Made by a program: the position numbers and the translations under genes. Below, one piece after another: positions 9,072-27,132 of a stretch of DNA of 27,869 bases; position 1 is the first letter of the stretch; each line of letters opens with the position of its first letter. The DNA is from a virus. The notes beneath the pieces were generated by a model, which was not told the DNA's origin, did no database searches, and saw only the letters and a program-made list of their open reading frames with translations. The stretch is from IMG/VR virus record IMGVR_UViG_3300030419_000454, positions 1 through 27,869 of that record, one strand, 5' to 3'.

Positions 9072-9445
9072 TTGCGTAACTTCATAAGTTTGTCTGCACC
9101 TCTAATACCAAAACTCGCACTGACCCCAATAAAAAGGAGGTACTGATACCAATCAGGGAGGTTAGACAAAGCATCAAAGCCAGCATGAACCCTACCCATA
9201 ACAGCAAGATCATCAAAAGCAACCGCATAACCTACCATAAAGATAGGAACGGCAAGTACAAGCGTCCAAAATTCGTCTTTCCACGAAGCTCCTGATGCCG
9301 CAGCCATTTTAGATTCCCAATCAGCATCATGTTCGATGACAGCCATCTTAGCTTTGTGTTTAGCTTGTGACTGTTCATGCTTATTGTTCATCCATGTACC
9401 AGCAAGATTAGCTACTGGCCCTACAATTGCGCTAAATATATTCAT
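9068..9445 (-). CDS. holin, GTA-type 3TM family
   Basis: This 125-residue protein has an amphipathic or hydrophobic N-terminal segment (MNIFSAIVGPVANLAG), a charged helix (HEQSQAKHKAKMAVIEHDAD), and two strong spans, FWTLVLAVPIFMVGYAVAF at about 59-77 and WYQYLLFIGVSASFGI at about 98-113. The tryptophan-rich linker before the first strong span (SWKDEFWTL) and the ending GADKLMK match the holin family described for gene transfer agent release. Such holins permeabilise the inner membrane so endolysin can reach peptidoglycan. AAGGAAAAAGG precedes ATG 9445. It overlaps the end of the iscU gene by 14 bases, so the two are expressed together. Confidence 0.85.
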   Translation of the reverse strand: MNIFSAIVGPVANLAGTWMNNKHEQSQAKHKAKMAVIEHDADWESKMAAASGASWKDEFWTLVLAVPIFMVGYAVAFDDLAVMGRVHAGFDALSNLPDWYQYLLFIGVSASFGIRGADKLMKLRK

Positions 9446-9821
9446 AACCTTTTTCCTTATAGTCTTTTATAGCAGCTTTAATAGCATCCTCTGCTAAAAC
9501 AGAACAATGAATCTTTACAGGAGGTAAAGATAGTTCTTCTGCTATATCTACATTTTTAATATCTTCTGCTTCTATTAAACTTTTTCCTTTAACCCATTCA
9601 GTTAATAAAGAACTAGACGCTATAGCAGAACCACAACCATATGTTTTAAACTTTGCATCTTCAATCATTCCTTTAGGACTGACTTTAATTTGAAGCTGCA
9701 TAACATCTCCACAAGAAGGTGCACCTACAATACCTGTACCAACTTGTTTATCCTCTTTGTCTAAACGTCCTACATTACGAGGATTGTCATAGTGATCCAT
9801 TACTTTATCGCTATATGACAT
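9432..9821 (-). CDS. iscU: IscU-type iron-sulfur cluster scaffold protein
   Basis: This 129-residue protein is a complete IscU of the classical ISC pathway, colinear with bacterial IscU from MSYSDKVMDHYDNPRNVG to the C-terminal helix. The cluster ligands are all present: C37 with D39 in GAPSCGD, C63 in KTYGCGSAIASSS, and H105-C106. The HscA-binding motif LPPVK is at 99-103. IscU receives sulfur from IscS, assembles a 2Fe-2S cluster and passes it to acceptor proteins with HscA/HscB. No iscS, iscA, hscA, fdx or iscX lies in the window, so it would have to work with host partners. The gene is one base downstream of the 61-residue gene and overlaps the holin gene by 14 bases, so it is embedded in the lysis cassette and is not an assembly chimera. 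Confidence 0.97.
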   Translation of the reverse strand: MSYSDKVMDHYDNPRNVGRLDKEDKQVGTGIVGAPSCGDVMQLQIKVSPKGMIEDAKFKTYGCGSAIASSSLLTEWVKGKSLIEAEDIKNVDIAEELSLPPVKIHCSVLAEDAIKAAIKDYKEKGYEYI

Positions 9822-10133: not shown

Positions 10134-10495
10134 ATCCAGGGCCTTGGTCTTGTTGATGAATTATCTATGATATCTAGATGTATAAACCTAGAGTTCACTT
10201 GTCCTTTTTGATTGATACCAATCCCTGTGAAACCAGCCTTCAGAGCCTCTTCTAAGAGCGTCAAAGCCTTTTCTCCAGTTACATGGATATCCATAGCCTT
10301 TCCAGTTACATGCGCTCCAGGCGTTGACTTACGTTTTTCTATTGGATGCTGCTCACATCTGTATGCACTTGAGACTACGAATGGAAACCCTACTGCTTCT
10401 CGTAGAGCTTCTATCTTCTTTATAAATTCATCATCAATAACAAGATTACCGCAGTGCGAACACTTTAGTTCATCTTCTGTAAAATACTTATACAC
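10121..10495 (-). CDS. endolysin, M15 zinc peptidase (Peptidase_M15_3)
   Basis: The 124-residue product shows the M15 zinc site: GAHVTGKAMDIHV supplies H62 and D69, and FIHLDI supplies H106, with the typical opening KYFTEDELKCSHCGN and a VSSAYRC segment. The family cleaves peptide stems or crosslinks of peptidoglycan (D,D-carboxypeptidase or L-alanyl-D-glutamate peptidase type). I chose GTG 10495, which has AAGGG at 10507-10503 with a seven-base spacer and overlaps the previous stop by 8 bases. An in-frame TTG at 10522 lacks a good site and would extend the overlap to 35 bases. No signal peptide, so release depends on the holin at 9068-9445. Short for a full endolysin, with no separate binding domain. 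Confidence 0.92.
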   Translation of the reverse strand: MYKYFTEDELKCSHCGNLVIDDEFIKKIEALREAVGFPFVVSSAYRCEQHPIEKRKSTPGAHVTGKAMDIHVTGEKALTLLEEALKAGFTGIGINQKGQVNSRFIHLDIIDNSSTRPRPWIWSY

Positions 10496-13400
10496 TAGCT
10501 TGCCCTTGTAATTTCTTGCCAAGAGCTGATACTACAAGTCCTTGACGATCTTCAATATCTATGAAGGCTCCTCCAGCTTGTTCACTATATGGTCTGCCTG
10601 TCATCTTATCTATTCTTTCATCAGGTTCTACAGGAGCATTAGGTACTAAAGCAAGTCCACCTTTATCTTTTTTAACTTTAACTTTTTCTTTATCATGTTT
10701 ATAGAAAGGACTAAGACCTGCTTTAATAAAAGGCATTGCATGTTTGGCTGCTGTATCTACAATTTGTTTTTCTATAGGAATTTTAGTATTAAATCCTTGT
10801 CCACCTTCCATATTACGCATGTATTCTAGAGCTTCTTCAGTTTGTCCCGGTACAAGTGTTGGTATTAAAATTTCTTTACCATCTATTTCAATACCAGTAG
10901 ACATCTCAGTCATTATTTCGCCTCTACTATTTTTTATAGGGCCTAAGAAACCATGTTCATCTTTTCTAGTACCATCAAGTCTAAACATACTAGGATGATC
11001 ACTGCGTCCTCCTTGTGCTTTCTGTAAGCGTGATTTAATTAGTCCTCCCTCTGCTCTACCTGAAGGTCTATCTTCTGTAAACTCCCAATCCATACCTTCT
11101 GCAAGAGCTTTAGCTTCTTTACCAAAAGGCGCACGAATAATATATTGATGTGCTGCTCCTTCAAAATCTCCTTCAACTAAATTCTGTACAGCATAAGTTG
11201 TACCTGTACCAAATTCACCTATCCAAGCATAGACAGGACTAATAGAATCTAAACTTTGTCGATAGGCAGCACCACTCCAAAGTCTTGAAGTCTTATCAAC
11301 AAGCCAGTTAACATTACCAGAATAAGGAACGACTCTTGCAAATTGCTCTGAACTAACCATCTTTTCTGCAAAACTGTCATAATCTTTATTGCTTTCACTT
11401 TCCATTGTAGGATCATTTAAGAAATCTCTAAATGTTAGAATGCCATCATAAAGTACTAATGTACCTAAAGCTCTTACAGCTAAAGCAGTATCACCATCTT
11501 CTATTCTCTTAACTAAAGCATTTAACTGACTTGTTTTAGCCATTGCCCAAGACATAAATTGTGCTAAAGATTTTATATGTGGATTTCTAGATTGAGCAAA
11601 AGCTCTACGATTACTTAGTTGTGGAATAAGTGCATCTCTATCAGCAGCTCTTATACCCATTCTATTCAATAGTTCTTTACCAGAAGGATCTGCAAAAGCA
11701 GCATCCACATTATCAAAACCAGATAAATATTTAGCCATATCAGCCGTCATCTTATATTGTTCGGCTTGACTAATTAAACCCGAAGATGGTTTTTTAGCTA
11801 TCTTTTTAGAAAGTTTAAAAGCATCTTCAATACCAGCATTATAAGCATACCGTCTAGCAAATGTAGTTAGTTGTGTAAGACCTATTGTTTTAAAAAATTT
11901 CTCATTTACTTTTCTAGTATATCGTTGTGTCCTAGAATGTGGTTTATCAATTGTAAAGTACTGTCTAAGTTCTTCTACCGTAATATCTCTAGTATCAAAA
12001 CCAGAAAGAGATGCAAAATCTTTTTCTCTATCTGTTTTAATGGCTCTGCCTAATCCTTTTATAGCAGAAAAAGCTCCACTGTTTTGAAAGGGTTGTATAA
12101 TATCACCTAAACTAGAGATCGTTGCTTTAGGTAAGAAAGTTAAGTTAGCCATTGTTGAAACAATACTATAAAAATTATTAACAATTGTATTATTACTATA
12201 CTCATCAGCAGCATGAAGTTTTCCAAAAAATAAATCTACACTATCATGTATAGCTTTTATTTTTCTATTTCTTTGTTTCTTTAAAAAATCTACTTTATTA
12301 TAATCATTAGCTTCTGTTGCTACTTTTATTAAAGGATCATACTCAGCTACAATAGCTCTTTTAATTGATGTAATTCCTTCTCCTTTTGATCCAAACCTAC
12401 GAGAAAATTCAATTTTGTCTGTATTATTTTCTACATACTTTTTTAAAAGAACAGCAGGATCACGAACTAAAAAATCTTTTATTTCTTTTCTAGCACCAGG
12501 AGCTTTAAAAGTTCTATCTCTTTCCACATTTGCAGCTAAGTCAACCATAACTAAATCAGGATCTGTATAATCCGCTTTTGATCCAACTTCCCAAGATTTA
12601 TTACTTCCAGCACTAGGTTTACCATAAGTAGCAAAGTTTTCTACTATCGTATCTGCCTTTGCTCGTGCTACCTCTTCCGCTGACATACCTGTTTTAGCAG
12701 TAACACCCTGTTTTAAATAAGCTTTTGTAAATGCTTGTTTAGCAAGTTCTGGATTCTTTAAAATTTCATCTACATCGTAGATATGACTTAGCCCATAATT
12801 TAATAATTTTTTACCTTCTAGTCCTGCGTTATCTATAGCGTCTGTGAAATAATCGTTGCTATATTTTTTTGCCCAATCTCCATAACTAATAACTTGTTGC
12901 ATTTGGGTAGCTGAAAGTTCTCCTTGCTTAACTTTATTTTTTAAATCTTTTTTAAAAATAAATCCATTAGCATAATCTGTTGCTAACATACGCAAAGGTA
13001 ACATGTCTTCACCGTTTAATTGATGAGCTATTGTAGCTTTATCAATTGCTAACCAGTGTTGTTGTATAACATTAGATACAGTTTCTTCTACCGAAGGTGC
13101 GGCTGTTCCTTTTAAATTAAATCCTTTTTGAGCAAATAACTGTTTATTAAAATCGTTAACTACTCCCCCTAAAACTTTCATAGCAGAACTATGTGACCCT
13201 GCAAAGGCAAGATTAACATTAGCCCATAGATTTCTACGTTGGAGATCTTTAATTCCTTGTAAGCTAATTTCTTTAGAAGCTGTTGACATATCTGAATTAA
13301 TAATTTTTTTAGATAATTGCCCACTAGCTGCTCCCAAAAGAGCAAACACTGCTGGACTTACTGAGTCATCTTCAGTTATAAAGTTATTAGTTACTCCTAT

Positions 13401-15836
13401 ACTATATCCTGTAGCTGCTCCAATTAAAGGGCGTGTAATAGCTCTGGCAAACGTATTTCCATTTAATATATTATCAGAATCTAAACCTTCAATTATATTT
13501 AAATATCCATTTGTTAAGCTATCTCCAGCTTCGTGATACTCTTTAACTAAATCATCAAGAGTTTTATCAGCTTCTGCTGCTGCTTCTAAAGCTTCAGGAT
13601 AATTATTTTCTATATACTTTAAAACTCTTGGATGATCCTTTTTAATAGGAGCAGTTGTATTTAAAGTTACTGAAGAAGCACTAATAGTAGGCGTTTCAAT
13701 TTCATCAACACCTGGAAAAGATATACCAGCATCCTCTAATTGTTTTGTCCAAGCGGCTGGCTGACTTTTAGGACTAGCATTTAAAGTAGATGTCCATGTT
13801 TTAGACCAGTTATAACTTTCATCTACATTAAACCCTGTATAATCCTCTCCAACCCACATCCATTTATGATGCCAAATGCTATTACTAGCTTTTCCTTTTT
13901 TCATTCCTCCTTTAACAGTATAAGACCACGTTTTACCTACCCTTGGTTCAGTAGCTGTATCAAAATCAGGAGCTTCATCAAAGCGTATTCGTGCTGGTTT
14001 TCCTTTCTGTGCTTTTTCATACATTAAAGTATTAAAGGAAGCATCCTCTGGTAGTTCTTTAATAGCTTTGTTATATAAATTCTGCAAAGTTTTAGGCATC
14101 TGTTCAATATAATTTTTATGAAAATAAATTTGATTGCCTATAATTTTTCCTACTGGATTAGTTTTGTCACCTCTCTTATAAGAAGTACCTTTAGGATTTT
14201 TAAAAACTTCTCTACCGTTTATTAAATTAGTTGGTACAGAATCATCAATTATTGTTGAAATATTATCTGGTATAAAGGTACTATCTTTAGTAGCTATAAT
14301 AGTGTTACCTTTTCGTTGTACATTTCCCTTACCGAAAACACTTTCAATTAAAGGCATATAGTCTTCAAGAGGCTTATTATTTTGCCAACTGGTAGGATCT
14401 TTCTTACTAGAAGGGCCTGGAGCTTTACCTTTAACACCTGCATAAACTGAAAAGAAAGCTTGCTTACCGTCTTTAAGAGCATCATGCGCTTGTTTAATAA
14501 CTAGACTTTGATTACTTTCTTCTTTTATAGTATTTAAAACATTAGCATTTATAACACCATCTACTTGCCCACCTTTAACTTTACCAGCCACTTCTATATT
14601 ATGTTCTGCTGTTCGATTAAAAGGATCATAAACTAAATATTCAACGCCCTCTTCTGTATAAACTGTTTCAGCTTTAGTAGCTCCACCATCTTTACCTGCA
14701 CCACCTCCAATATCAAGAACTCTATCGCCCTCTTTAAAAGTTCCATCTTTTCGTAATTTTGTTATTAAGGCTGGAAACTTATTATAATTAACAACTGTAT
14801 TTTTAGAAGTAAATTCTTGTTTAGGAACAAACCATACATCATCTTCTAAGTTTCTTAATGCCTCATCCATTTTAGCTAGTTCTTCTAGTTCATCAATTTG
14901 ACTTGTAGACGCTCTAACCGCATCTTCATTTGTAATTAATGCCGCAACTCTTTCTTTTAGCTCATTAAAGTCTTGTTTAGCTGCTCTAGCTTCTTTAATT
15001 CTTTTACCAAAAACAGGAATATTATAGAGGGCTGCAACAAGAGGACTATCTTCAGCATCTGCTTGTTCAAAAAATTGTCTAATAGTTGCTGCCTCATCTG
15101 GTGTAACTTCAGAAGAGTCAATAGGTTCTAAATCTTTTTTTGTACCATCTTGAAATTCTATTGTTTCAGGACGAGAAGCTTCTGATCCTTCTGGTAAAGC
15201 CTCTAAATTATCTAAGGCTTCATCATCCGCATCTACACTTTGTTTTGGAGGAACAGTAGGTGTTTCATCACTAGGCAAGTCTTTTACTGCCTTACGAGTT
15301 GGGCCTAAAATATAAGCAGGGATTGCTCCCAAACTAAAATATAAAGCAACTTCATTAGCTCCTATCTCTCTATTATTTATAGATGCATTAAGAGCTTCAT
15401 CAGCCGCTACTAGACTACCTATTGCAGCACCTTGTTTAGCTCTACCAAATGCTTTAGCTGCAAATGATGCAGTCTTAGCAGTTGCACCAATTCCTCCTAG
15501 TCCTGGAACTGCATAACTAAGATCAAGAATTTCTCCAGTTCCTTCACCTACTTTAGCCAACATAGATTTTTTACTTCGTAAAGGTAAATCATCATAACGT
15601 CTAGCGAGTCTTGCGTTTTCTTCACGCTGTAGTTCTTTAACATCAATACCTTTTATTGCAGCAGTGGCTTTTCTATGAAGATCACCAATAAACCAAGAAG
15701 ATTTATCTAGTCCATATTGGAACTGCCTGAGTTTACTTCCTTCATATTTAGTAGCATCTATTTCTTCAAGTGTAAGATTGTCTTCGACCTCTTGCATTCT
15801 ATCAAATTCTTCTTGAGGAGCTATTAGTTTTTCCAT
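10488..15836 (-). CDS. 1782-residue polyvalent virion-type protein with embedded SAM-methyltransferase domain
   Basis: Residues 1-345 hold a basic N-terminus, a Gly/Ala-rich hydrophobic region (about 105-180) and acidic low-complexity linkers. At about 345-517 lies a class I methyltransferase fold: motif I VLDIGGGAGKDGG (D375-G385), an acidic residue at the end of strand 2 in YLVYDPFNR (D404), GVINANVLNTI and FFSVYAG, then SWQNNKPLEDYMPLIESVF. A domain with ARIRFDEAPDFDTA and a Trp-rich segment (WHHKWMWVGEDYTGF) follows to about 690. Residues 800-1580 are long helical regions without motifs I know. The end has a module HGFLGPIKNSRGEIMTEMS, ILIPTLVPGQ, then a tail DKMTGRPYSEQAGGAF, both of which I associate with phage virion proteins. 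Multi-domain proteins of this size injected with DNA are known, for example P1 DarB. Its start overlaps the 951-residue gene as TAATG. An injected protein acting on DNA is inference. Confidence 0.85.
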   Translation of the reverse strand: MEKLIAPQEEFDRMQEVEDNLTLEEIDATKYEGSKLRQFQYGLDKSSWFIGDLHRKATAAIKGIDVKELQREENARLARRYDDLPLRSKKSMLAKVGEGTGEILDLSYAVPGLGGIGATAKTASFAAKAFGRAKQGAAIGSLVAADEALNASINNREIGANEVALYFSLGAIPAYILGPTRKAVKDLPSDETPTVPPKQSVDADDEALDNLEALPEGSEASRPETIEFQDGTKKDLEPIDSSEVTPDEAATIRQFFEQADAEDSPLVAALYNIPVFGKRIKEARAAKQDFNELKERVAALITNEDAVRASTSQIDELEELAKMDEALRNLEDDVWFVPKQEFTSKNTVVNYNKFPALITKLRKDGTFKEGDRVLDIGGGAGKDGGATKAETVYTEEGVEYLVYDPFNRTAEHNIEVAGKVKGGQVDGVINANVLNTIKEESNQSLVIKQAHDALKDGKQAFFSVYAGVKGKAPGPSSKKDPTSWQNNKPLEDYMPLIESVFGKGNVQRKGNTIIATKDSTFIPDNISTIIDDSVPTNLINGREVFKNPKGTSYKRGDKTNPVGKIIGNQIYFHKNYIEQMPKTLQNLYNKAIKELPEDASFNTLMYEKAQKGKPARIRFDEAPDFDTATEPRVGKTWSYTVKGGMKKGKASNSIWHHKWMWVGEDYTGFNVDESYNWSKTWTSTLNASPKSQPAAWTKQLEDAGISFPGVDEIETPTISASSVTLNTTAPIKKDHPRVLKYIENNYPEALEAAAEADKTLDDLVKEYHEAGDSLTNGYLNIIEGLDSDNILNGNTFARAITRPLIGAATGYSIGVTNNFITEDDSVSPAVFALLGAASGQLSKKIINSDMSTASKEISLQGIKDLQRRNLWANVNLAFAGSHSSAMKVLGGVVNDFNKQLFAQKGFNLKGTAAPSVEETVSNVIQQHWLAIDKATIAHQLNGEDMLPLRMLATDYANGFIFKKDLKNKVKQGELSATQMQQVISYGDWAKKYSNDYFTDAIDNAGLEGKKLLNYGLSHIYDVDEILKNPELAKQAFTKAYLKQGVTAKTGMSAEEVARAKADTIVENFATYGKPSAGSNKSWEVGSKADYTDPDLVMVDLAANVERDRTFKAPGARKEIKDFLVRDPAVLLKKYVENNTDKIEFSRRFGSKGEGITSIKRAIVAEYDPLIKVATEANDYNKVDFLKKQRNRKIKAIHDSVDLFFGKLHAADEYSNNTIVNNFYSIVSTMANLTFLPKATISSLGDIIQPFQNSGAFSAIKGLGRAIKTDREKDFASLSGFDTRDITVEELRQYFTIDKPHSRTQRYTRKVNEKFFKTIGLTQLTTFARRYAYNAGIEDAFKLSKKIAKKPSSGLISQAEQYKMTADMAKYLSGFDNVDAAFADPSGKELLNRMGIRAADRDALIPQLSNRRAFAQSRNPHIKSLAQFMSWAMAKTSQLNALVKRIEDGDTALAVRALGTLVLYDGILTFRDFLNDPTMESESNKDYDSFAEKMVSSEQFARVVPYSGNVNWLVDKTSRLWSGAAYRQSLDSISPVYAWIGEFGTGTTYAVQNLVEGDFEGAAHQYIIRAPFGKEAKALAEGMDWEFTEDRPSGRAEGGLIKSRLQKAQGGRSDHPSMFRLDGTRKDEHGFLGPIKNSRGEIMTEMSTGIEIDGKEILIPTLVPGQTEEALEYMRNMEGGQGFNTKIPIEKQIVDTAAKHAMPFIKAGLSPFYKHDKEKVKVKKDKGGLALVPNAPVEPDERIDKMTGRPYSEQAGGAFIDIEDRQGLVVSALGKKLQGQASV
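10503..10507 (-). promoter_or_regulatory. ribosome-binding site AAGGG that sets the endolysin start at GTG 10495
   Basis: On the minus strand AAGGG ends seven bases before GTG 10495. It favours this start over the in-frame TTG at 10522, which has AAGGA only about 17 bases upstream. Confidence 0.5.
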
Positions 15837-18691
15837 TATGCTTTATTCCTGCGTAAATAATCTGCTACAGTACCTTTTGCATTTTTATGGTAGCTGTTAT
15901 AATGCTTCTTCCAATATTTACCCCTCTCTTGTACTGTATCAGGAATAGGATCTTTCTTCATAGCATAAGCTAAACGTGCAAAAATAACTGCTTTAGTATC
16001 ATCTTTTAAATCTTCATACTTTATAGCTCTAGGATCAAACCCAAACTCATCTATAATAGTCTGTACAAATTTAGTAAGATATTGAGGAACACCTTTACTA
16101 CCTTCTAGGCGTTTTTGAATATCATTAAAACGCACTTCATCTAATTGTACAGCACTGAAACTTCCTCTTAATCCAGTTTTAGGATCAGTATACATAGTAT
16201 AAGTATCTGGATGTTTACCCATTGCAGATTCAATATTAATTGTTTCAGTTAAAAGTTCTTCAAGATTAGCTGTTGGCCCTACTGTAGAACTTACTTTTTT
16301 AATAATTGATCTGATATCAGAAGGATCAGCTAATAAAGAAGATGCATCTGCTTCAACAGTAGTTTCCTCTACAGGAGCTAGTGTTGGTAATAAATTATCA
16401 GGGAGTATTTCAAAGCCTTGACGTAAGAAAGCTAAAGCTTCTTGTTTATCTCCCAAGCCTGGCAAATCTATATTATTAGCTAATAAGTTAACTTGCATAT
16501 TAGCTTCTCTTAAAGAAGCAGGTAATCCTTGCATTGCGCCTCTTTCGTAATTACCTAAATAATTTCTTTGTTCGTCAGGACTATATAGTATAGTTGAACT
16601 ACCATATTCTTGTTCGACCTTATGTTCTATGCTTTGCAAAGCAGAAGACATAGTAAGTAAATGTTTTTGTTGGGCATCATTAAGATTATCTAGTATGTCA
16701 TTAAACGTAATGTCACCACCTTTATTGCTTCCAAAACGAGTAACATCCAACTGTCCAGAACTACCTGTAAATTTAACTGTTAATGGGCCAGAAGTATGTT
16801 GTATTGTAGGAACCTGTTGTGTTAGTGTTCCCTTTGAAGTTTTAATAAGAGGATTAGCTTGTGGGTTGTTACTAGCAAATACTAAAGCATTAGTTCCTTT
16901 ATGAGCTAGTTTTCTTAAAGATGATCCTGTACCAGCTTTTGTTTGTATTATACTTTGATGTACTTTAGATAATATATCCTGCATATCATCTGAATCTAAA
17001 TAATCTGGATCAGATGGTGACTGAGGTTTAATATCGGCATCAACTTGTGCTGCCATAGAAGTATCATCAGGTACAGGAGCTTGAGAAAGATCTTCTTCTA
17101 CATCTTTACGCTCGTCCCATGTTAAATAACCAGAGAAGTCTATTTTATCATCTGTTTTAAACCAGCCAACAATAGGCCAACCTTTATATCCTTCAGTTTT
17201 AATTTTTTCTAGATTAATATCTAATAACTTTAAAGTTCTCCATGCAGCTAAACTACGCTGTACGCCTAACTTTGCTTCTGTATTATTAACAGTAGCACCA
17301 TAGATAGGATCTAAAGCATTAAAATTAATAGTACCATCATCGTTTAAACTATTAGTTGTTAACTCAGCAGCCACTTGACCTATAGATCGTCTAGTTATAG
17401 CATTTAAAGCTTTTCCAACTATATCGTCTACTGCTTTTAAATCGGTTCTTATTTTAGAACCAGTACTTTCTGTTTCTAAGTCGAAAGAAAGTTCTTCATA
17501 AGTTTTCTCATACCCTTTATTTTTTAACAAGGCATTTCTAAATTCTTTTAAAATTGGTTGCGCTTCATCAAGCATATTTATTTCATCAGAAATATAATTA
17601 ATTTCGACTGTAGAGTCTCCTTTAATTCCCCATGCATAGCCTTCTAACATACGATTGTTTACTTGTTGATAAGTAGGAAGTGGGCCGTCTGGATTTTCTC
17701 CTTTTAACTGATTAAATACTTTATTAAATTCTTTATTAAACTCTGGATTGGCATCTCGTGCTTCTTCAAATGACTTATAAAATGCAAGTGTAGAAGCATT
17801 ATTGTCTGTAGTTAAAGAAGCTAATCTATTTAGCTCTGTACCCGGTTTATTTATTAAAGCAGCCACTTTTTGATCTATGTCTGCTATAGGTGTACCTTGA
17901 ATACCGTCTGTTAACTCTGTAATAAACGAATTAAATTTTTTGTCTGCGGCAGCTTTAACACTTGGATTATCTGAGCCTTGCTCAAAATAAGTTTTAATTG
18001 TATCTTTACTTAATCCAATTTGAGATAAGGTTGCAAGCACTGCTTGTTTTTCTACATCTTGCTTTGTTTGCCTACGAAAAAATCTTGTAACTCTTTTACC
18101 TAATGCATCTAATAAACCTGTTGAACTAGGATCATTAGCTTGTGCATATTTCATCATTGACTTTTCATCTACCCAAGTACTAGCAACTTTCTCTTGTTTT
18201 AAAAACTCGTCTGCATCTTTTTGTGAAATAGCATTAAGAGAGTTAATAATAGGACTAACTCCAGTTTTAGGATCAACAGTACTTGTAATAAACTTAGCCC
18301 ACTCTGATGGCTCATAGCCTTTTAAAGTTCCTCGTTGTATCAAAGCGTTTTTAAGACGAGGTAAATTATCTTCTGTAAAATAAGCTAGAGTATCTCCACC
18401 ATGATCTTTATTAATTTTTTCTCGTCTAGCCTCAAGTTGTTCTTTTTTAGACCTTAATGTTTCTACCATACTTAGTGTTCGTAAGCCTTCAGGATTTCTA
18501 AAGAAGCTATCTATAGGATCTCTGAAAGGAGCATTGATTATATCACTACCTACTTCTAAGGCACTACCTGCTACTTCTCCAACAATAGCACCTTTTATCA
18601 TGTCAGCATAACTAGGTCTATGCCTATTATATCTTCTTTTTCTAGCTCGACTAGATGAAGCTAGTAAACTACCTAAAGGATTATCTGCCAT
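15836..18691 (-). CDS. 951-residue internal-virion-type protein with C-terminal lysozyme-like domain
   Basis: A large protein of 951 residues, mostly helical and polar. The N-terminus is basic (SSRARKRRYNRHRP). The last about 165 residues read as a lytic transglycosylase or lysozyme-like domain: LTETINIESAMGKH with candidate catalytic E821, then GLRGSFSAVQLDEVRF in the place of the GLMQ motif, and KAVIFARLAYAMKKDP with ERGKYWKKHYNS. T7 gp16 carries a transglycosylase domain in an ejected core protein, but at its N-terminus; here it is at the C-terminus. Such proteins make a local hole in the cell wall during DNA entry. AGGAG precedes ATG 18691, and the stop overlaps the 1782-residue gene as TAATG. 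The middle 600 residues are unrecognised. Confidence 0.75.
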   Translation of the reverse strand: MADNPLGSLLASSSRARKRRYNRHRPSYADMIKGAIVGEVAGSALEVGSDIINAPFRDPIDSFFRNPEGLRTLSMVETLRSKKEQLEARREKINKDHGGDTLAYFTEDNLPRLKNALIQRGTLKGYEPSEWAKFITSTVDPKTGVSPIINSLNAISQKDADEFLKQEKVASTWVDEKSMMKYAQANDPSSTGLLDALGKRVTRFFRRQTKQDVEKQAVLATLSQIGLSKDTIKTYFEQGSDNPSVKAAADKKFNSFITELTDGIQGTPIADIDQKVAALINKPGTELNRLASLTTDNNASTLAFYKSFEEARDANPEFNKEFNKVFNQLKGENPDGPLPTYQQVNNRMLEGYAWGIKGDSTVEINYISDEINMLDEAQPILKEFRNALLKNKGYEKTYEELSFDLETESTGSKIRTDLKAVDDIVGKALNAITRRSIGQVAAELTTNSLNDDGTINFNALDPIYGATVNNTEAKLGVQRSLAAWRTLKLLDINLEKIKTEGYKGWPIVGWFKTDDKIDFSGYLTWDERKDVEEDLSQAPVPDDTSMAAQVDADIKPQSPSDPDYLDSDDMQDILSKVHQSIIQTKAGTGSSLRKLAHKGTNALVFASNNPQANPLIKTSKGTLTQQVPTIQHTSGPLTVKFTGSSGQLDVTRFGSNKGGDITFNDILDNLNDAQQKHLLTMSSALQSIEHKVEQEYGSSTILYSPDEQRNYLGNYERGAMQGLPASLREANMQVNLLANNIDLPGLGDKQEALAFLRQGFEILPDNLLPTLAPVEETTVEADASSLLADPSDIRSIIKKVSSTVGPTANLEELLTETINIESAMGKHPDTYTMYTDPKTGLRGSFSAVQLDEVRFNDIQKRLEGSKGVPQYLTKFVQTIIDEFGFDPRAIKYEDLKDDTKAVIFARLAYAMKKDPIPDTVQERGKYWKKHYNSYHKNAKGTVADYLRRNKA

Positions 18692-19270: not shown

Positions 19271-20644
19271 TTAACCAACAAACTGACCCATACCTGTAGA
19301 GGCAGGACGTAAGGCTCTTACAGTATTCGCAAAAATTCCTTGGCCTGGAGGAGCAAAATTAGCACCACTCATTTGCCAATCAAAATTTTGTCCAAGACCT
19401 ATTGTTTGCATCATTGCCATATTAGCAGGAAGTTCTGCCGCATCTGTAATAGGTGTAGAAAACCCCGATGTTCTATCTACGATTGTTGGAGTTTCTGGAT
19501 ACTCATATTCTGACTCACCAAAAATTTGATTTTGAATAGCTTGATTCACTACAGAACTAGGAATTTGTGCCATACCTTCCATTGTCCTTTTACCTAAAGC
19601 TTCCGCAGTATACTGACCTTTAAATTCTTTCAACCACTCTCCAGCCTTGTCTCTAAATCCAACTTTATCACCAGTATCAGTAAGATCAGTACCTGTATCT
19701 GTACCTGTACCTGTACCAGCAGCAGCAGGGTCAGAAACTATGTCATAAGTTTCACCTCCTCCTACAGTCATACGATTTGGATCATAACCTGTAGCTGTAC
19801 TTGTTTTATCTGTATATTCTAAAAGATTTTTAGTTGGATCTTCTACAGGAGGCTCGTAAATACCTAATCTTTCATTATCATAATTTTCTGAATATTGTTC
19901 TGCTTCCCATTTAGTATTAAAAGCTACTTCATCTTGTGGAGAACCACCAAGCCATTTACCTGTTGTAGTTTCTTTAGCATAAGGAGATGCTCCTTCCACT
20001 CCTCTATAGGTTTTTCTATGTTTATCTAAACCTATAGCTGTTTGATGTTGTCCAAAACGACTACCAAATGTTCCAGAGGCTAATTCTGCTTGATATTTTG
20101 CTGTACTTGTCACCATTTCAGTACCAAAATTTGTCCAGTTAGTAGTTAATTTAGTCCAACGATCTCCAGGAATCTGAGAAACTTTCTCTAAAAATCCTCC
20201 TTTACCTGCAAAATTACTAGCTCCTTTAGCAAACCACTCTTTCATTTTAGTTGGGCCTACTTTATCAAGACCAACTGATTTACCGATAAATCTTACAGAT
20301 TCATTTATGAAATCACTAACTGCTCCAGTAACATTAGTAACTGTACCAGATACTGCTTTTCCAAATGAAGCAGCTTTAGTCATTATATTACCCATACCAG
20401 AAATTAAAGGATTAGATGAAGCTAACATTGAGCCACTTAGTTTTAAATAACCTTGTGTTAATTTTGAAAACATGCCAGAGAAAAATTCTCCTATTCCGGG
20501 CAACATAATACTCATAGCAATAGTACCTAATGGCCCTATTTTATTCATAAATTTGCCTATCTTTTTAAAGACACTTTTTATACGCTTGCCTATTTTCTTA
20601 AATACTTTTTTTATAGGCTTAAAAACTTTACTAAGTAATCCCAT
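19271..20644 (-). CDS. 457-residue protein with amphipathic, membrane-active-like N-terminus
   Basis: The first 36 residues are a chain of basic amphipathic repeats: KVFKPIK, KVFKKIGKRIK, SVFKKIGKFMN, spaced by 11 residues. A hydrophobic stretch follows (IGPLGTIAMSIMLPGIGEFF). This looks like a cationic membrane-inserting helix, as in pore peptides. Residues 60-170 are Gly/Ser/Ala-rich with helices (VTNVTGAVSDFINESV). The region about 270-330 is acidic, with a Gly-Thr-Asp run (GTGTGTDTGTDLTDTGD). The last 60 residues contain FDWQMSGANFAPPGQG. AGGAG lies upstream of ATG 20644. Its place in the virion block and its N-terminus fit a DNA-ejection or tail-tip protein that touches the host membrane. 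No named family is recognised. Confidence 0.75.
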   Translation of the reverse strand: MGLLSKVFKPIKKVFKKIGKRIKSVFKKIGKFMNKIGPLGTIAMSIMLPGIGEFFSGMFSKLTQGYLKLSGSMLASSNPLISGMGNIMTKAASFGKAVSGTVTNVTGAVSDFINESVRFIGKSVGLDKVGPTKMKEWFAKGASNFAGKGGFLEKVSQIPGDRWTKLTTNWTNFGTEMVTSTAKYQAELASGTFGSRFGQHQTAIGLDKHRKTYRGVEGASPYAKETTTGKWLGGSPQDEVAFNTKWEAEQYSENYDNERLGIYEPPVEDPTKNLLEYTDKTSTATGYDPNRMTVGGGETYDIVSDPAAAGTGTGTDTGTDLTDTGDKVGFRDKAGEWLKEFKGQYTAEALGKRTMEGMAQIPSSVVNQAIQNQIFGESEYEYPETPTIVDRTSGFSTPITDAAELPANMAMMQTIGLGQNFDWQMSGANFAPPGQGIFANTVRALRPASTGMGQFVG

Positions 20645-20654
20645 ACTTTAACTC

Positions 20655-23600
20655 CTATGTTCCATATCCAAAATCATATGCACCAGATTTGCCTTTATTA
20701 ATAGCTTGTATTAAACCATATAAACTATTAGCTACTTCACCAGCCTCTTTAGGCTTTTCAAGCATTCCACTATTAGCCATTGCATTTTCAACAATCCTTG
20801 CAGCTCTATCTTTATCATTAGTTGCAAGCTGTACAGTATGTGTAGCTGCATCTCGTAACTGTTGCCATACTTGAGCTAATGCAGCATTTTGCAATGCAAA
20901 AGCATTCTGCACATTAATTTGATTTGATTGATTTGCAGCCGCTGTATCTACTGTATTAGCTTTTCTACGCCATTCAACATTAGATTGTTCAACTGCTTGA
21001 GCATTGGCAGCATTCCACTGATCTTTTTGAAAATCTATTTGACTATTAAATTGTTGCATTTGAATAGAATTAGCATTTTCAAGTTGATCAGCCTTTAAAG
21101 TTTGATTAGAATTAAATTGTGCCATTGCATTTTGTTGAGCTACATTTTGTAAATCCATTTGACTTACTAGATTTGTCATAAATTGATTTAATTGATTTTC
21201 AGATGTAGCATTAAACTGTTGTGCAGCATTATCAAAAGATTGATTAGCTAATATTTTTTGTTGCATTTGCTGATTTTCTAAAATTATAGCTTGTTGATCA
21301 GCATTTAAATTAGCCAAATCTAACTGTAAAAAAGACTGAGCATTTTGCATAGCTATTTTAGTTCGTTGATCTACTGCGGCTAAATCTAAATTAGCTAACG
21401 CAGTTGCATCTTGCATAATTGCTTGTTGTTCAGCATTAAAATCTGCCATTGTCATTGTTTGCATAAACTTACTATTAGCTAATGTAACTTGTTGATCAGC
21501 ACTAAATTGCGTTAAATCCATGTTGGCAACCATACCAGCATTTTGTATAGCTTTTTGTTGATCTACATTTAATTGTGCTACTCCTAATCGTTCAGCAATT
21601 TGACCTTGTAAAAGATTTGTTTGCATTCTAGCATTTAAGTTCGCTAATTCTGCTTGCTGTTCTGCTCCTATACGTTCTGATTCTGCTTGATTACGTGATG
21701 TTAAATTAGCTAGACGCATCTGTTGTTCATTAGTTAAGTTAGCTAATTCCATTTGTTGTTTAAATTCTGCATTCTTAGAAAGAAACTCAGCAGCTATTTG
21801 ATTTTCTTGCATAAGAGCTTGTTGTTGATTACTCATATTTTGAGCAGCTCTAGTTTGTAATGCTTGAGCATTAGCTTGTGCAATAGGATAAGCACTTTGA
21901 ATAATAGAATTAAAAAGTGCATCTCTTCCAACTGTTGAGACTTCTAAACCTCTTTGAGCCATCATAGAATTAACGGCTGCTACTGCTGGCCTAGCCCATG
22001 TTGGAATCTTATCATCTTCTAAACCTTCTAATAATTTATCCATTTGTGCTGAAACAAGAGCTTCTTCAGGTAGCTCTGCAACTGCTGCAACTATTGCAGG
22101 TTCAGTAACATCTAAAGCTCCTGGATTGTCTGTTGCTGTAGCGGCTGCTTGAGAAGATAAATTTGAATTTTGAGATAATGAACTAGACGCAGGATTTGTC
22201 ATTGAAGTTTTTAACGAATCCATTATTTGTTTTCTAGTAGATCCAAAACCAAACGTATCTACAATTTGTTGGGCTTGAGCATCATCTGCGGCTGTATTAG
22301 TAATAACAGCACGAGTAGCTTTTTCTGCTTCTTGGGTTGGAGATATATTTATTGCTGATCTAAATGTAACTTCAGGAACAAACGAAGCATCAGAACGTGT
22401 TAATGTAGCACTAGGAGTTCTAGCAGCTTCTTCTTGAGCAGTATCTCTTCTTGCAGCCTCTGTTGTGCCTGTAGTTCTAATTTCAGAAACATCTGCTTGT
22501 TGAGTTAAACCTGTTTGTTGTGCTGCTGTAATATCAGCAGTTTCTGAAACACCTACAGGTGTCCATTCTTTTGCTGTAATAGTATCAGGAGTAGTTGTAG
22601 TCTCTGCTGATTTTGTATAATCACCCATACCAGAAGTAGAAATATCTCCATAATCACCTGTTAGCTTTTGGACATTTTCAGGTTTTGTTATTGACCAAGG
22701 AGCTAATCCTCTCCAAGTCATTATAGGCTTACCTTCTGCATCGTACATAGGTTCGCCAGTTTCAGGATCTAATTTAGGAACTGGAGTTCTACTAATTAAT
22801 CGTTCTGGAGACATTTGTGAAATATCCGACCTTGCCATTTGACTTAATTGAGCAGCAGTTTGAGGATAATTAGAAAGAGGACTTACTCGTTGACGAGTCT
22901 TATCATAAGAAGCAGAAAGATCCGCTTCACTTACCTCTAGATTAGGATCGTCAGCAGAACCCACAGGAACCCAAGCTGTACCAGTCCATACTTCAGTATA
23001 AGTTATCTGACCAAACTCAGAAGGTACATTAATTACTCTTGTATCTCCTACGTTTGGAGTAGTTTCTCCTGTACCATCTCCAGTACCATCTCCAGTACCA
23101 TCTCCAGTACCGTCACCTGTACCGTCACCTGTACCATCACCTGTACCGTCTTTTACGTTGGTAATCTTATCTGTTGGGAAATTATTTTTAAACCAAATTA
23201 ATTCAGGGCCACTTAAAGTACCCTCTTTAAATCTATTGTACATAGAAACTATAGGTGCATATGAAGCAGCATGAGTAGCATTAGGATCAGTCCATATATT
23301 ATATTGGTCAATCATTGATTGGGTAGCAGTACCATCAGCTACTTTATTTAAAATGTGTACAAAATTATTATCACTTTGACCTAATGGATCATTTGGATCA
23401 TCTCCACTATACCACCAAGACGGAAGTTCTGGTTCTTTAAATACTCCAGGTCTTTCATCAGGTATTTCAGGATCATCAAGAGGGGGAGGAGGAGGTCTAT
23501 CTCCTGCGGCAGCTTTAGCATCTGCGGCAGCTTGAGCATCTGCGGCAGCTTTAGCATCTGCTGCTGCTTTAGCCGCTGCTTCTTCATTTATTTTTCTTTG

Positions 23601-23765
23601 AAGTTCTGCTAATCTTTCTTGTTGAGCAGCTAATTGTTCAGGCGTACTTGTAATATTTTGAGAGCTGCCAATACCACCTACACCTATACCACCAACAGCA
23701 GCACGTTTACGCTTCAAAGCCTTTGTAACTGAACGATTATTACGCTTTTTTCTTTTTTTAGCCAT
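20655..23765 (-). CDS. 1036-residue Gln/Ala/Asn-rich repeat protein of the virion block
   Basis: The N-terminus is very basic (MAKKRKKRNNRSVTKALKRK). Residues 58-87 are an Ala-rich AADAKA repeat, followed by prolines (RPPPPPLDDPEIPDERP). Residues 205-231 are a GTGD tetrapeptide repeat. About 330-640 is Thr/Ala/Gln-rich. Residues 674-970 are an unbroken array of 11-residue units rich in Gln, Asn, Ala and Leu, for example LANLTNEQQMR and QFNSNQTLKAD. The C-terminus ends NSLYGLIQAINKGKSGAYDFGYGT. Such a straight helical array could span the envelope or line a tube. There is no signal peptide, no lipobox and no enzyme motif. AAGGT lies upstream of ATG 23765. It sits between the tail-fibre genes and the other virion-type proteins. 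Likely an internal virion or tail protein; I recognise no family name. Confidence 0.8.
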   Translation of the reverse strand: MAKKRKKRNNRSVTKALKRKRAAVGGIGVGGIGSSQNITSTPEQLAAQQERLAELQRKINEEAAAKAAADAKAAADAQAAADAKAAAGDRPPPPPLDDPEIPDERPGVFKEPELPSWWYSGDDPNDPLGQSDNNFVHILNKVADGTATQSMIDQYNIWTDPNATHAASYAPIVSMYNRFKEGTLSGPELIWFKNNFPTDKITNVKDGTGDGTGDGTGDGTGDGTGDGTGDGTGETTPNVGDTRVINVPSEFGQITYTEVWTGTAWVPVGSADDPNLEVSEADLSASYDKTRQRVSPLSNYPQTAAQLSQMARSDISQMSPERLISRTPVPKLDPETGEPMYDAEGKPIMTWRGLAPWSITKPENVQKLTGDYGDISTSGMGDYTKSAETTTTPDTITAKEWTPVGVSETADITAAQQTGLTQQADVSEIRTTGTTEAARRDTAQEEAARTPSATLTRSDASFVPEVTFRSAINISPTQEAEKATRAVITNTAADDAQAQQIVDTFGFGSTRKQIMDSLKTSMTNPASSSLSQNSNLSSQAAATATDNPGALDVTEPAIVAAVAELPEEALVSAQMDKLLEGLEDDKIPTWARPAVAAVNSMMAQRGLEVSTVGRDALFNSIIQSAYPIAQANAQALQTRAAQNMSNQQQALMQENQIAAEFLSKNAEFKQQMELANLTNEQQMRLANLTSRNQAESERIGAEQQAELANLNARMQTNLLQGQIAERLGVAQLNVDQQKAIQNAGMVANMDLTQFSADQQVTLANSKFMQTMTMADFNAEQQAIMQDATALANLDLAAVDQRTKIAMQNAQSFLQLDLANLNADQQAIILENQQMQQKILANQSFDNAAQQFNATSENQLNQFMTNLVSQMDLQNVAQQNAMAQFNSNQTLKADQLENANSIQMQQFNSQIDFQKDQWNAANAQAVEQSNVEWRRKANTVDTAAANQSNQINVQNAFALQNAALAQVWQQLRDAATHTVQLATNDKDRAARIVENAMANSGMLEKPKEAGEVANSLYGLIQAINKGKSGAYDFGYGT
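20856..21746 (-). repeat. hendecad array: 27 tandem 11-residue units
   Basis: Within the 1036-residue protein, residues 674-970 divide into consecutive 11-residue units with no insertion or deletion. The first part pairs into 22-residue units that typically open LANL, LTQF or MADF with xxQQ at positions 8-9. The later part has units that mostly open QFN, QFM, QLE or QWN. The DNA is diverged between units, so this is an old protein-level repeat and not a recent DNA duplication. Eleven residues per three helical turns gives a nearly straight or right-handed coil. Confidence 0.85.
23071..23150 (-). repeat. 12-bp tandem repeat encoding GTGD
   Basis: About 6.7 copies of a 12-bp unit (plus strand GTACCATCTCCA and the variant GTACCGTCACCT) encode GTGD in the minus-strand protein. 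The first copies are nearly identical and the last three share the second variant, suggesting expansion by slippage in two steps. As 12 is a multiple of three, copy-number change keeps the frame. Confidence 0.9.
23505..23576 (-). repeat. 18-bp tandem repeat encoding AADAKA
   Basis: There are four 18-bp units starting at 23505, 23523, 23541 and 23559 (plus strand TGCGGCAGCTTTAGCATC). The first three differ by one base; the fourth is diverged. They encode an alanine-rich helix near the N-terminus of the 1036-residue protein. Length changes would be in frame. Confidence 0.85.
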
Positions 23766-24642: not shown

Positions 24643-27132
24643 TTACCTCGCATTGGCATATTTGAATGGAAATTCAGCAAAGGCCATGAAAAATATATTT
24701 TCTCCACTTCCATTAAGGTCATTAGTTGCTCTAAGCTTAAAGCCGTTTGATAAAAAATCAACACCGTTACTGCCAGACGTATAATCAGCAGTCGTTGCGT
24801 TTGGAAAAAGAATAAGAGTGTTCAAGTTTAATGGATCTCTTCCAGTATCGTGAACCCACCACCATGCTGAACTGCCATGATTCTTAAAAAGCACATAAGC
24901 AGGTCTAAAGCCACAATTCACAAAAACTCCATCTACATTTCCGTTTCCGATGTAGTTTCCAAAGCGACTAAAACCTTCAACTTCTGCCCAAGCGTAAATA
25001 AGAAAGTCTTCATCATCTGTTGCATTACTATAAATAACGCTAGATGTGGGTGCTGTAGCAGTCATTGAAGCTGGTGCATCTGTATCATTTAACTGAAAGT
25101 AATCCCAACCACCGTCTAAAGCAGACGTTTGTAAATACCAATCACCTGTATCACTTATAAGTTTTACTATGTAAACTTTTGGAACAACTCCAAGACCATG
25201 ACCATAAGTTGTTGCTGATCCTGTTCCTTCTCCCTGCATAATACTAAATCCAGCCGTTGTATTTACAGATACTGTAGAGGCTTCTGCTCCATCATTATTT
25301 GTACTACTAGAACCACCAGCTTTCCAACACCAAGCCACATAATTTTCAGTGTTTGCATTTCCTGCTGTGTTTGCATTTGCAGTAAAACCATCAGAACCAA
25401 ATGCCGAAACATAAGAAGCTCCTGCGCTTTCTGCTGAATTAGAATTAGTTGAAATCCATGCACGATTAGCTCTTACACTATCATGTAAACCATGATTAGT
25501 AGAACCACCTCTGTCTTTTATCCATACTAAATCAGGTTGATGACCTACTCCAGTAATAGCATTTGTTCCACCATTTCCAGTATAAAGCACAGTATTAAAA
25601 TGCTCTGTAGGTTTTTTAATTGCTGGTGTAGGTAGGTTTTTGGAACATAACGCTTTGAATCCAGACGGTGGCGAATAGAAAAAATTGCCCTCACCGTTAC
25701 CGTCTGCATTGCCTCCAGCCGTTTCTAGTCCACAGAATGTTCCATTTTGACCAAAGTTTAATGTTTGTTTTGAATTACTATTGCTTGCAGAATTTGGCCC
25801 AACTTCTAACTGTATTATAGTATCACTAGTAAAAGTATGAGACTGCCCATTTGATCCTGCTGCTGGATTTCCACTATCCAACCATGTAATACCTGATCCG
25901 CTGTCGTATCCCCCATAAACTTTGTTATTATCTACATCAAGAGCTAAAGCAATAATATAACTTGTAGCAGTAGCACCAGTTACAGTTTCTTGTGCTGATC
26001 CACCATCAAAAAGTCTAATAGTATCAACCGTAGCAATTAAATCTGCTACCATTCCTGTAAAAGCAGAGTTGTTGAAATATTCTCCATCAGTTGCTCCACT
26101 ACCATCTTTTGGAATAATTGCTGTTTTTTGAGGCATAACGCCTATCCAAGATGTGTTGCCTGTTCCAGACTCAACTGCCATTCTTGTTTCAATATACCAT
26201 TTGCCTGATTCTGGAACTTTAAACGTAGCAATGTGATTTCCATAATATCCATTGTTATAAGTTACAGCTTTTACATGTAGATTTCCTTGAGATAAATTTG
26301 TAATAGTTGAATTGTAAGGTGTTGCTGCATTTATTGTCGGGTAGTTATTAGTAGGTGAATCAAGCAGGACATCTGAATTTCCCATACTGCTGGTTGACCA
26401 AGTATTACTGTTCCCAGAACTGTCGGTTCCAATAGCACCTGATGCCAATTTTAAATAAACACCATTATTGCCGTAAGATCCTGTATATTTCTTAGGAATC
26501 CAAGCCCCTGTAACGGCATCGGTTTCTCCAAATGATGAAGGTGTTAATGCTGTTCCATCAACATAGTGAACTTCTGCTACATATCCTTTATACCAAGAAA
26601 CTGTACCTGTTGCATTGATTGCTCCTATCAATGTCCATGTAGCAGAACCTATACCAGTATTAGAATCTTGAGTTGGGTTATTTGTTGTACCAAAAGAAGT
26701 TTCTTGGACTCCGTTTATATATAATTTAACTCTGTCATTTGCTGTTGATTGTGTAGTATCTATTGCCAAGCATAGATGAAACCACGAAGTTACATCTTTA
26801 AATACCCTATTTGTAATTCTCCAGTTTGTATTATATCCACCTATATAAATCTTATCGGCATAAAAATTTAACGCAAAATATTCAGTATCTGTATTCGTAG
26901 AGTCATCCCAAGCGGAAAATAAGATGTTGCCCTTACCAGAATCAGCATGACCAGTTTGAACATGTGCCCTTTTGACCCATGCAGAAAATGTCCATGTTTT
27001 GCGGCTAGTACCAGCACTTCCGTAGTTTTTATAAATGTAAGAATTAGCATCTTCTCCAAACATTAAAGACTGCTCTATTTCATAGGCTTTTCCACCCGAT
27101 GCAGAAATAAGTTTTTGTGCTGCTCTACTCAT
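24643..27132 (-). CDS. tail fibre with LamG-like and SPRY-like domains
   Basis: This 829-residue protein has a short N-terminus, then a concanavalin/LamG-like domain at about 45-205 (WTFSAWVKRAHV, DRVKLYINGVQ, YVAEVHYVDGTALTPSSFGE). A SPRY-like domain lies at about 285-465 (SGKWYIETRMAVES, YIIALALDVDNNKVYGGYD, then HTFTSDTIIQLEVG). The C-terminal 320 residues hold two related beta modules (HQPDLVWIKDRGG, NYVAWCWKAG; then FRPAYVLFKNHGS, IFFMAFAEFPFKYANAR). This architecture is common in marine phage fibres and fits glycan or protein binding on the host surface. It starts directly after the stop of the upstream fibre gene (TAGATG) and is followed by the chaperone-like gene. No trypsin-like or lyase motif is seen. 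Confidence 0.9.
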   Translation of the reverse strand: MSRAAQKLISASGGKAYEIEQSLMFGEDANSYIYKNYGSAGTSRKTWTFSAWVKRAHVQTGHADSGKGNILFSAWDDSTNTDTEYFALNFYADKIYIGGYNTNWRITNRVFKDVTSWFHLCLAIDTTQSTANDRVKLYINGVQETSFGTTNNPTQDSNTGIGSATWTLIGAINATGTVSWYKGYVAEVHYVDGTALTPSSFGETDAVTGAWIPKKYTGSYGNNGVYLKLASGAIGTDSSGNSNTWSTSSMGNSDVLLDSPTNNYPTINAATPYNSTITNLSQGNLHVKAVTYNNGYYGNHIATFKVPESGKWYIETRMAVESGTGNTSWIGVMPQKTAIIPKDGSGATDGEYFNNSAFTGMVADLIATVDTIRLFDGGSAQETVTGATATSYIIALALDVDNNKVYGGYDSGSGITWLDSGNPAAGSNGQSHTFTSDTIIQLEVGPNSASNSNSKQTLNFGQNGTFCGLETAGGNADGNGEGNFFYSPPSGFKALCSKNLPTPAIKKPTEHFNTVLYTGNGGTNAITGVGHQPDLVWIKDRGGSTNHGLHDSVRANRAWISTNSNSAESAGASYVSAFGSDGFTANANTAGNANTENYVAWCWKAGGSSSTNNDGAEASTVSVNTTAGFSIMQGEGTGSATTYGHGLGVVPKVYIVKLISDTGDWYLQTSALDGGWDYFQLNDTDAPASMTATAPTSSVIYSNATDDEDFLIYAWAEVEGFSRFGNYIGNGNVDGVFVNCGFRPAYVLFKNHGSSAWWWVHDTGRDPLNLNTLILFPNATTADYTSGSNGVDFLSNGFKLRATNDLNGSGENIFFMAFAEFPFKYANAR

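Follow-up and report, generated by a model that had tools for sequence, protein, structure and literature searches.

The locus and the layout of the giant protein

The window analysed here is the whole of a 27,869-nucleotide stretch of viral DNA (IMG/VR record IMGVR_UViG_3300030419_000454). An ORF at positions 10488-15836 of the minus strand begins with ATG and encodes a product of 1782 aa, and the call of this reading frame in an earlier note, which was made from the sequence alone, proved to be real. The gene belongs to a series encoding tail, internal-virion and lysis proteins, and the following large genes were assigned:

10488..15836, minus strand: giant virion protein of 1782 aa, probably ejected (homology and synteny with HTVC103P gp52 and HTVC104P gp54 of pelagiphages)
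15836..18691, minus strand: probable internal virion protein of 951 aa, immediately upstream, its C-terminus matching phrog_3108
19271..23765, minus strand: two large structural-type proteins of 457 and 1036 aa, with homologues in the same block of HTVC103P
24643..27132, minus strand: virion or tail-fibre-type protein of 829 aa (DUF7483, phrog_19943)

Comparison of the giant protein with its relatives, including the homologue at locus L062, divided it into four parts:

14943..15773, minus strand: N-terminal part, residues 22-298, also present in MTase-free relatives (blastp against L062 residues 54-306, E 5e-35)
13665..14942, minus strand: inserted cassette of ~1.28 kb, residues ~299-724, carrying a methyltransferase (MTase) and a second domain, absent in L062
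10989..13664, minus strand: conserved core of the family, residues 725-1616
10683..10988, minus strand: second, smaller insertion, residues 1617-1718, common to Pseudomonas and Acinetobacter phages (homology)

The "virion-type C-terminal modules" of the earlier note thus resolved into a core of ~890 aa common to marine podophages and the small inserted module at residues 1617-1718. The same core was found in HTVC103P gp52, HTVC104P gp54 and HTVC115P gp40 (26-30% identity), and in HTVC103P-type pelagiphages the giant gene likewise comes after other internal-virion genes. Several relatives carry lysozyme, SLT or tail-lysozyme domains in the same protein; these domains and the gene order suggest that the window protein is packaged and ejected. 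A virion context is plausible, and the best explanation is an HTVC103P-like marine podovirus whose ejection-type proteins end with this one, the largest of them. No homologue of the whole 1782-aa protein was obtained by sequence among solved structures, and weak Pfam matches to ICEA and PBCV_basic_adap, as well as a TYW4-like fold match, were judged to be chance or generic.

The boundaries of the cassette are clear from the L062 alignment, in which window residues 22-298 correspond to L062 residues 54-306 and window residues 725-1616 to L062 residues 305-1193. In the closest relative (49% identical) the site is empty, and the window insertion is clean, ~426 residues in length. Elsewhere in the giant-protein family, of which 79 relatives were compared, the MTase family lies behind the core or is missing, with at least 13 gains or losses; by sequence comparison, both the empty site and the repeated gain and loss are shown. 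In HTVC103P and HTVC104P, unlike in the window, a related MTase is located close to the C-terminus, where it precedes a lysozyme, and the second domain is absent; the giant protein of HTVC115P has no MTase. Two phages that are 99.8% identical over the core were found to carry different MTase cassettes, and such a swap between near-identical phages suggests selection for function. The giant ejection-type protein of these abundant marine podoviruses exchanges MTase cassettes, which provides natural pairs with and without them that bear on the action of such an enzyme during genome entry.

The methyltransferase domain

The first domain of the cassette and its motifs were located as follows:

14289..14819, minus strand: class I SAM-dependent methyltransferase domain, residues 340-516 (PF13489; AlphaFold and Foldseek; hhalign)
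14694..14714, minus strand: motif I, D375-IGGGAG, the SAM-binding loop (sequence and alignments)
14532..14543, minus strand: N432-V-L-N435 after strand 4, where DNA amino-MTases carry NPPY (sequence and alignments)

The motifs named in the earlier note (D375-I-G-G-G-A-G, D404, N-V-L-N and SWQNNKPLEDYMPLI) were all found in place, the D404 codon at 14625-14627 and SWQNNKPLEDYMPLI following N432-V-L-N435. Pfam Methyltransf_23 (PF13489) matched residues 360-466 with E 1.1e-6 and scored 29 bits, above its cut-off of 27. The MTase segment aligned end to end with MTases of unrelated phages, in which D375, G377, G379, P405, N435, Q340, T347 and Q485 were conserved. Structure prediction, a check that the same note had proposed, was carried out with an alignment that left out the jumbo-phage locus L010, the HTVC proteins and the plasmid proteins; AlphaFold returned a confident alpha/beta MTase model with high pLDDT in the core, and the top matches of the PDB fold search were class I MTases complexed with SAM or SAH (E 1.6e-5, probability 1.00). 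The Rossmann-type fold, the D/E-x-G-x-G motif I and the acidic residue after strand 2, which define class I enzymes, are all present. Pfam, alignment and AlphaFold agree on a SAM-binding MTase inside the giant protein, and a predicted MTase fold with intact SAM motifs is accordingly shown at the level of sequence and model.

Fold matches of the MTase core included RPA2492, cg3271, UbiG and GNMT, and by profile it resembled UbiG-like and mRNA-cap MTases. No DNA MTase appeared among the PDB fold matches listed, and this result, along with the motif differing from that of amino-MTases, makes a protein, RNA or small-molecule substrate possible.

The motif after strand 4 also bears on P1 DarB, which had been put forward as a precedent. 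Enzymes of the DarB type are adenine MTases resembling EcoKI, in which NPP(Y/F) is combined with LPD36 and an SF2 helicase (PMC5512222). P1 DarB and the polyvalent proteins (Iyer et al., 2017; PMC5512222) resemble the window protein in being large multidomain phage proteins that contain an MTase and plausibly accompany the DNA on delivery, and a large virion-associated protein containing an MTase domain is what a DarB-type antirestriction methylase would be. However, the window MTase belongs to another family; it has N-A-N-V-L-N in place of NPP(Y/F), no helicase or LPD match (LPD36 included) was obtained in the window protein up to E 1, and its closest cellular relatives are the TIGR04096 proteins described below. 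A DarB-type adenine MTase was rejected since NPPY and the helicase are absent; we regard this identity as highly improbable, and DarB does not hold as a relationship. As in polyvalent proteins, the window protein is large, consists of several functionally unrelated domains and is encoded among phage structural genes, but no domain of their catalogued kinds (LPD, MPTase, ART or similar) was found in it.

The second domain and the TIGR04096 family

The remainder of the cassette is occupied by a second domain, hereafter HHKW:

13719..14240, minus strand: undescribed 'YxHK/IWHHKW' domain of ~175 aa, residues 533-706 (phrog_16075, of unknown function; hhalign; AlphaFold)
13860..13877, minus strand: invariant I654-W-H-H-K-W659 motif (alignments)

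The earlier note had overlooked this domain, as well as the TIGR04096 relation of both domains and the absence of the insertion in the closest relative. HHKW was modelled by AlphaFold with a pTM of 0.83; no PDB fold matched below E 1, and the top PDB sequence match of its profile had E 0.33. With 34 viral loci, an invariant IWHHKW and neither a Pfam model nor a PDB fold match, it is a virus-wide domain. An MTase was present in the same ORF or nearby at 18 of the 34 loci. The other 16 had HHKW without it, and the role of HHKW therefore need not depend on the MTase. These include the KVP40-type phages, whose phrog_16075 proteins (Vibrio phage KVP40 gp0371-type) share the domain at 31-38% identity but carry it in a protein of ~320 aa with no MTase nearby.

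A search of bacterial and archaeal genome contigs with exact viral peptide patterns revealed no HHKW relatives, because the cellular branch has diverged. That branch was reached by profiles. TIGR04096 (NCBIfam dnd_rel_methyl) is a putative methyltransferase associated with DNA phosphorothioation; its gene is found in bacterial dnd loci, next to the anti-phage phosphorothioation genes. With hhalign, the MTase profile matched the dnd MTases with a probability of 98.6 and E 7e-16, and the HHKW profile matched the TIGR04096 flanking domain with a probability of 98.2 and E 3e-14. Across seven whole plasmids, each of the two viral profiles, searched up to E 10, matched only the TIGR04096 gene, and tblastn with an approximate HHKW consensus returned 26 plasmid records, most of them annotated as this family. 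Blastp of the window domain with the Pseudoalteromonas dnd protein gave E 4e-11 as a single comparison. The TIGR04096 model itself aligned to window residues 559-676 with 12.6 bits and E 4.4e-4, which does not reach the curated cut-off of 150 bits. Two genes of a jumbo phage provided a further connection: one encodes HHKW of the dnd type (E 9e-17 against the dnd protein), and the other, at a distance of 0.6 kb, an MTase of the window type (E 2e-8).

The MTases have in common D-x-G-x-G, a D-P that follows strand 2, V-L/I-N-V-I behind strand 4 and, towards the end, a conserved Q; the flanking domains have in common (I/L)Y-x-H, P-x-F-D-x-x-x-x-P and I-x-H-x-K. Judged by these profiles and motifs, both window domains are shown to be remote homologues of the two TIGR04096 domains. 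The arrangement differs: the cellular proteins, mostly of 666-918 aa, carry the flanking domain ahead of the MTase and a divergent second copy behind it, whereas the window protein, of virion type, has a single copy that follows its MTase; no dnd genes lie nearby, none having been recognised among the window ORFs that were read and scanned. Neither the window protein nor the three dnd-associated proteins scanned had a model in PADLOC. No paper on TIGR04096 function or on a phage MTase/HHKW module was found in the literature search, and the few papers retrieved proved unrelated. Two co-travelling domains tie an unstudied phosphorothioation-linked enzyme family to a phage delivery protein.

Possible roles of the cassette

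The earlier note had proposed a role at genome entry, and this is the best-supported guess given the lysozyme-type domains in the same protein of relatives. Packaging, ejection, catalytic activity, substrate and an antirestriction role are all inferred here. The N-terminal third of the giant protein has received the MTase and HHKW cassette, distant phage cousins of TIGR04096; in the favoured reading the packaged protein would then enter the cell with the genome, where HHKW would bind or position a substrate and the MTase would methylate it. The substrate would most likely be the incoming DNA, or else a nucleic acid-linked part of the host restriction machinery, and the entering genome would be shielded. 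We give this reading about an even chance.

An injected and active cassette could also have a target other than DNA, namely a host protein, tRNA or small molecule (e.g. a defence signal), in order to take over the cell. The small-molecule or protein-type class I MTases that its core most resembles, the lack of a DNA amino-MTase motif and a second domain with no known fold implying DNA binding are consistent with such a target. However, outside phage-like elements and Vibrionaceae megaplasmids the only two-domain cellular relatives detected are phosphorothioation-associated by name, and at locus L049 also by gene order, the dnd genes adjoining the TIGR04096 gene. Moreover, at a single phage locus (L036) the gene pair has a gene of the DNA-MTase type on one side and one for the antirestriction protein ArdC on the other. 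A target other than DNA appears rather doubtful to us.

In viruses, the two domains were found in one protein, with either of them first, or in adjacent genes. Standalone pairs next to integrases were seen in jumbo phages as well as on megaplasmids of Vibrio; their neighbours are mixed (integrases, head/tail genes, one ArdC) and lend weak support for function, and these pairs are not obviously injected proteins. Such ordinary non-virion gene pairs, along with the indirect case for packaging of the window protein, would agree with a cassette that is not an entry effector, acting instead as a passenger or regulatory module late in infection or as a catalytically dead scaffold in a structural protein. 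We consider this unlikely, since the window retains conserved SAM-binding and strand-4 motifs, the MTase family repeatedly entered one and the same giant protein, whose relatives have lysozyme-type domains, and the cassette swaps between near-identical phages suggest selection for function.

A bolder form of the entry reading is that phages took a Dnd-island enzyme into the virion, where it would alter DNA at entry and blind phosphorothioation-dependent restriction, HHKW being a new fold that recognises or processes DNA modifications in defence and counter-defence alike; we hold it to be quite improbable. The phage proteins may give a first handle on the role of TIGR04096. Methylation of the phosphorothioate or of its target site would be an example of the DNA alteration in the Dnd-derived case.

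The giant protein and its two inserted domains

The 1782-residue giant protein was found to be encoded by an intact ORF, the last large gene of its block in the reading direction, and small lysis and accessory genes, including an M15 peptidase, come after it. The main features of the block are:

27867-24643, minus strand, tail-fibre-type proteins, at the start of the block in the reading direction
Between these and the giant ORF, 1036-aa and 457-aa structural-type proteins, then a 951-aa protein
10488-15836, minus strand, the giant-protein ORF, 1782 aa

The plus strand carries replication genes (family A DNA polymerase, DnaB-type helicase, endonuclease VII and endonuclease I). The nearest isolates are HTVC103P-type pelagiphages, whose gp52/gp54/gp40 share with the window protein its core (residues 725-1616) and its position after other structural genes; the morphogenesis genes of this group were described as HMO-2011-type (PMC8528129). 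In relatives, the giant protein also contains phage lysozyme, SLT or tail-lysozyme domains, consistent with a protein that is ejected and crosses the cell wall. A GDGTGDGTG tandem repeat was also observed at residues ~205-237 of the 1036-aa protein (20655-23765, minus strand); it yields a weak, probably spurious, Pfam match.

The earlier note had proposed a methyltransferase (MTase) domain inside the giant protein and had called for structure prediction of this region, and both database and model bore it out. In the METHYLTRANSFERASE domain, residues 360-466 of the protein matched Pfam Methyltransf_23 above the curated cut-off (E 1.1e-6), and D375, G377, G379, P405, N435, Q340, T347 and Q485 were nearly invariant in the alignment with phage relatives. 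AlphaFold prediction of residues 330-720 (34 sequences) gave a mean pLDDT of 85, with high confidence for both domain cores and a flexible linker; at a pTM of 0.54 the relative placement of the two domains is not reliable. The top PDB matches of the predicted MTase were the SAM/SAH-bound class I enzymes 3e23 and 3h2b. The motif that follows strand 4 reads N-A-N-V-L-N, where DNA amino-MTases have NPPY.

The second domain (residues 533-706), here called HHKW, carries a YxHK motif, F-D-E-A-P-D-F-D and an invariant I-W-H-H-K-W. It matched no Pfam model, and in PHROGs it corresponds to phrog_16075, listed as of unknown function. The domain was predicted as a compact alpha+beta fold (pLDDT 90, pTM 0.83), for which no PDB match below E 1 was obtained. 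An IMG/VR scan with the HHKW alignment gave 34 loci, T4-like KVP40-type Vibrio phages among them. An HHKW-domain gene was also seen on Cetobacterium somerae plasmid p3 (L058 5998-6537), where iscB and groEL occur too.

Insertion, turnover and pairing of the cassette

The nearest giant protein, that of locus L062, shares 49% identity with the window protein across the core. Its segments that align with window residues 22-298 and 725-1616 abut one another (positions 306 and 305). Window residues ~299-724, which hold both domains, are therefore an insertion, and L062 represents the empty site. The 3'-side genes of the two phages are mostly 86-100% identical, whereas among the ejection-type proteins identity drops to 25% (951-aa), 35% (457-aa) and 49% (giant), indicating rapid evolution or recombination of the ejection-type block.

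Across 79 loci with the giant-protein core, which starts near residue 350-460 in complete proteins and at 797 in the window, the MTase lay in the same ORF as the core in 16. It was N-terminal in only one of these (L060, the near-identical relative of the window) and C-terminal in the others, 13 without HHKW and two with it. In two further loci it immediately followed the core ORF, cut off from it by one in-frame stop (L104) or lying in another frame (L085). In L104 (693-5664) this stop, which the near-identical L106 and L107 read through, may reflect a sequencing error, decay or readthrough. Presence and absence of the MTase required at least 13 changes on a quick core tree with long branches. 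Across 1954 core bases L134 matches L136 at 99.8% identity, yet the two carry different MTase cassettes, one with HHKW and one without, and their downstream ends differ too; this is a natural cassette swap.

With the phage-member MTase profile, which was partly seeded from HHKW loci (non-seed loci: L014, L015, L016, L027, L032, L035, L036, L039, L041 and L042), the MTase was also detected in 18 of the 34 HHKW loci, either within the HHKW protein or encoded nearby. It comes first in the window, L002, L013, L014-L016 and L027, and HHKW comes first in L023 and L026 and, as gene pairs, in L022, L034, L036 and L037. In the neighbourhoods of giant proteins, up to 16 kb each, an MTase lay outside the giant ORF only in L085 and L104, so this co-occurrence is well above background. 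On the Vibrio and Photobacterium megaplasmids the two are fused (L056) or near-neighbour genes (L057), outside any obvious virion context. In L036 (2884-7934) the HHKW and MTase gene pair is flanked by a phrog_757 DNA-methyltransferase-type gene and a zincin-domain ArdC antirestriction gene.

Two further differences from L062 were observed. A second giant-protein insertion, DGTRKDEHGFLGPIKNSRGEIMTEMSTGIEIDGKEILIPTLVPG (residues 1617-1718; 10683-10988, minus strand), is absent from L062 and common to Pseudomonas phage vB_PaP_DMTU_1 and Acinetobacter podophages. A NifU_N/IscU-like Fe-S scaffold gene (9432-9821, minus strand; Pfam E 4.5e-53) was not found in L062, whose neighbouring genes on both sides match those of the window at 91-95% identity; an auxiliary metabolic gene has here been gained or lost as a single unit.

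Relation to a dnd-associated family

We took the domain layout to resemble that of NCBIfam TIGR04096 ('DNA phosphorothioation-associated putative methyltransferase'), and the resemblance was afterwards tested by profile. The TIGR04096 model matched window residues 559-676 far under its cut-off (E 4.4e-4). Eight cellular members were taken from plasmids, one of which (L049) adjoins dndB, dndC and dndD; their usual layout is a flanking domain, the MTase and a diverged second flanking-domain copy. In single profile comparisons, viral HHKW matched the N-terminal cellular domain (probability 98.2, E 3e-14, 142 columns) and the viral MTases matched the cellular ones (probability 98.6, E 7e-16, 145 columns), the latter alignment taking in a family-specific tail with a conserved Q. 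When both viral profiles were run against nine whole plasmid records, matches with E up to 10 fell solely in the TIGR04096 gene in all seven that carry one. A single blastp comparison of the window domain with the Pseudoalteromonas dnd protein gave E 4e-11. Jumbo phage LR745208 (L010 3798-5486) forms a bridge between the cellular group and the phage one. Its window-type MTase gene (E 2e-8) has a dnd-type flanking-domain gene ~0.6 kb away, and the latter matched the dnd protein at E 9e-17 in a 2.3-Gb database. On these comparisons the window protein is distantly homologous to TIGR04096 but falls outside that family.

Precedents and proposed role

Enzymes carried into the cell by large phage proteins are a known theme, with DarB, whose packaging has been described (PMC9024508), and the polyvalent proteins (PMC5512222). 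No paper was found in our literature search on the use of this MTase family, on the HHKW domain, on their homology to the dnd-associated proteins or on cassette exchange, and these are new as far as the literature searched shows.

We propose that the virion would deliver an exchangeable MTase module, which would act during the first minutes after infection, and that HHKW would handle the substrate. We give a DNA substrate, or an antirestriction effect, roughly an even chance. Counting against it, no DNA MTase was among the PDB matches listed, and standalone pairs occur in jumbo phages and on the Vibrio/Photobacterium megaplasmids. Three indirect points favour it: the cellular family is linked to DNA phosphorothioation, at one locus, L036, the pair sits between DNA-MTase-type and ArdC genes, and the cassette turns over fast.
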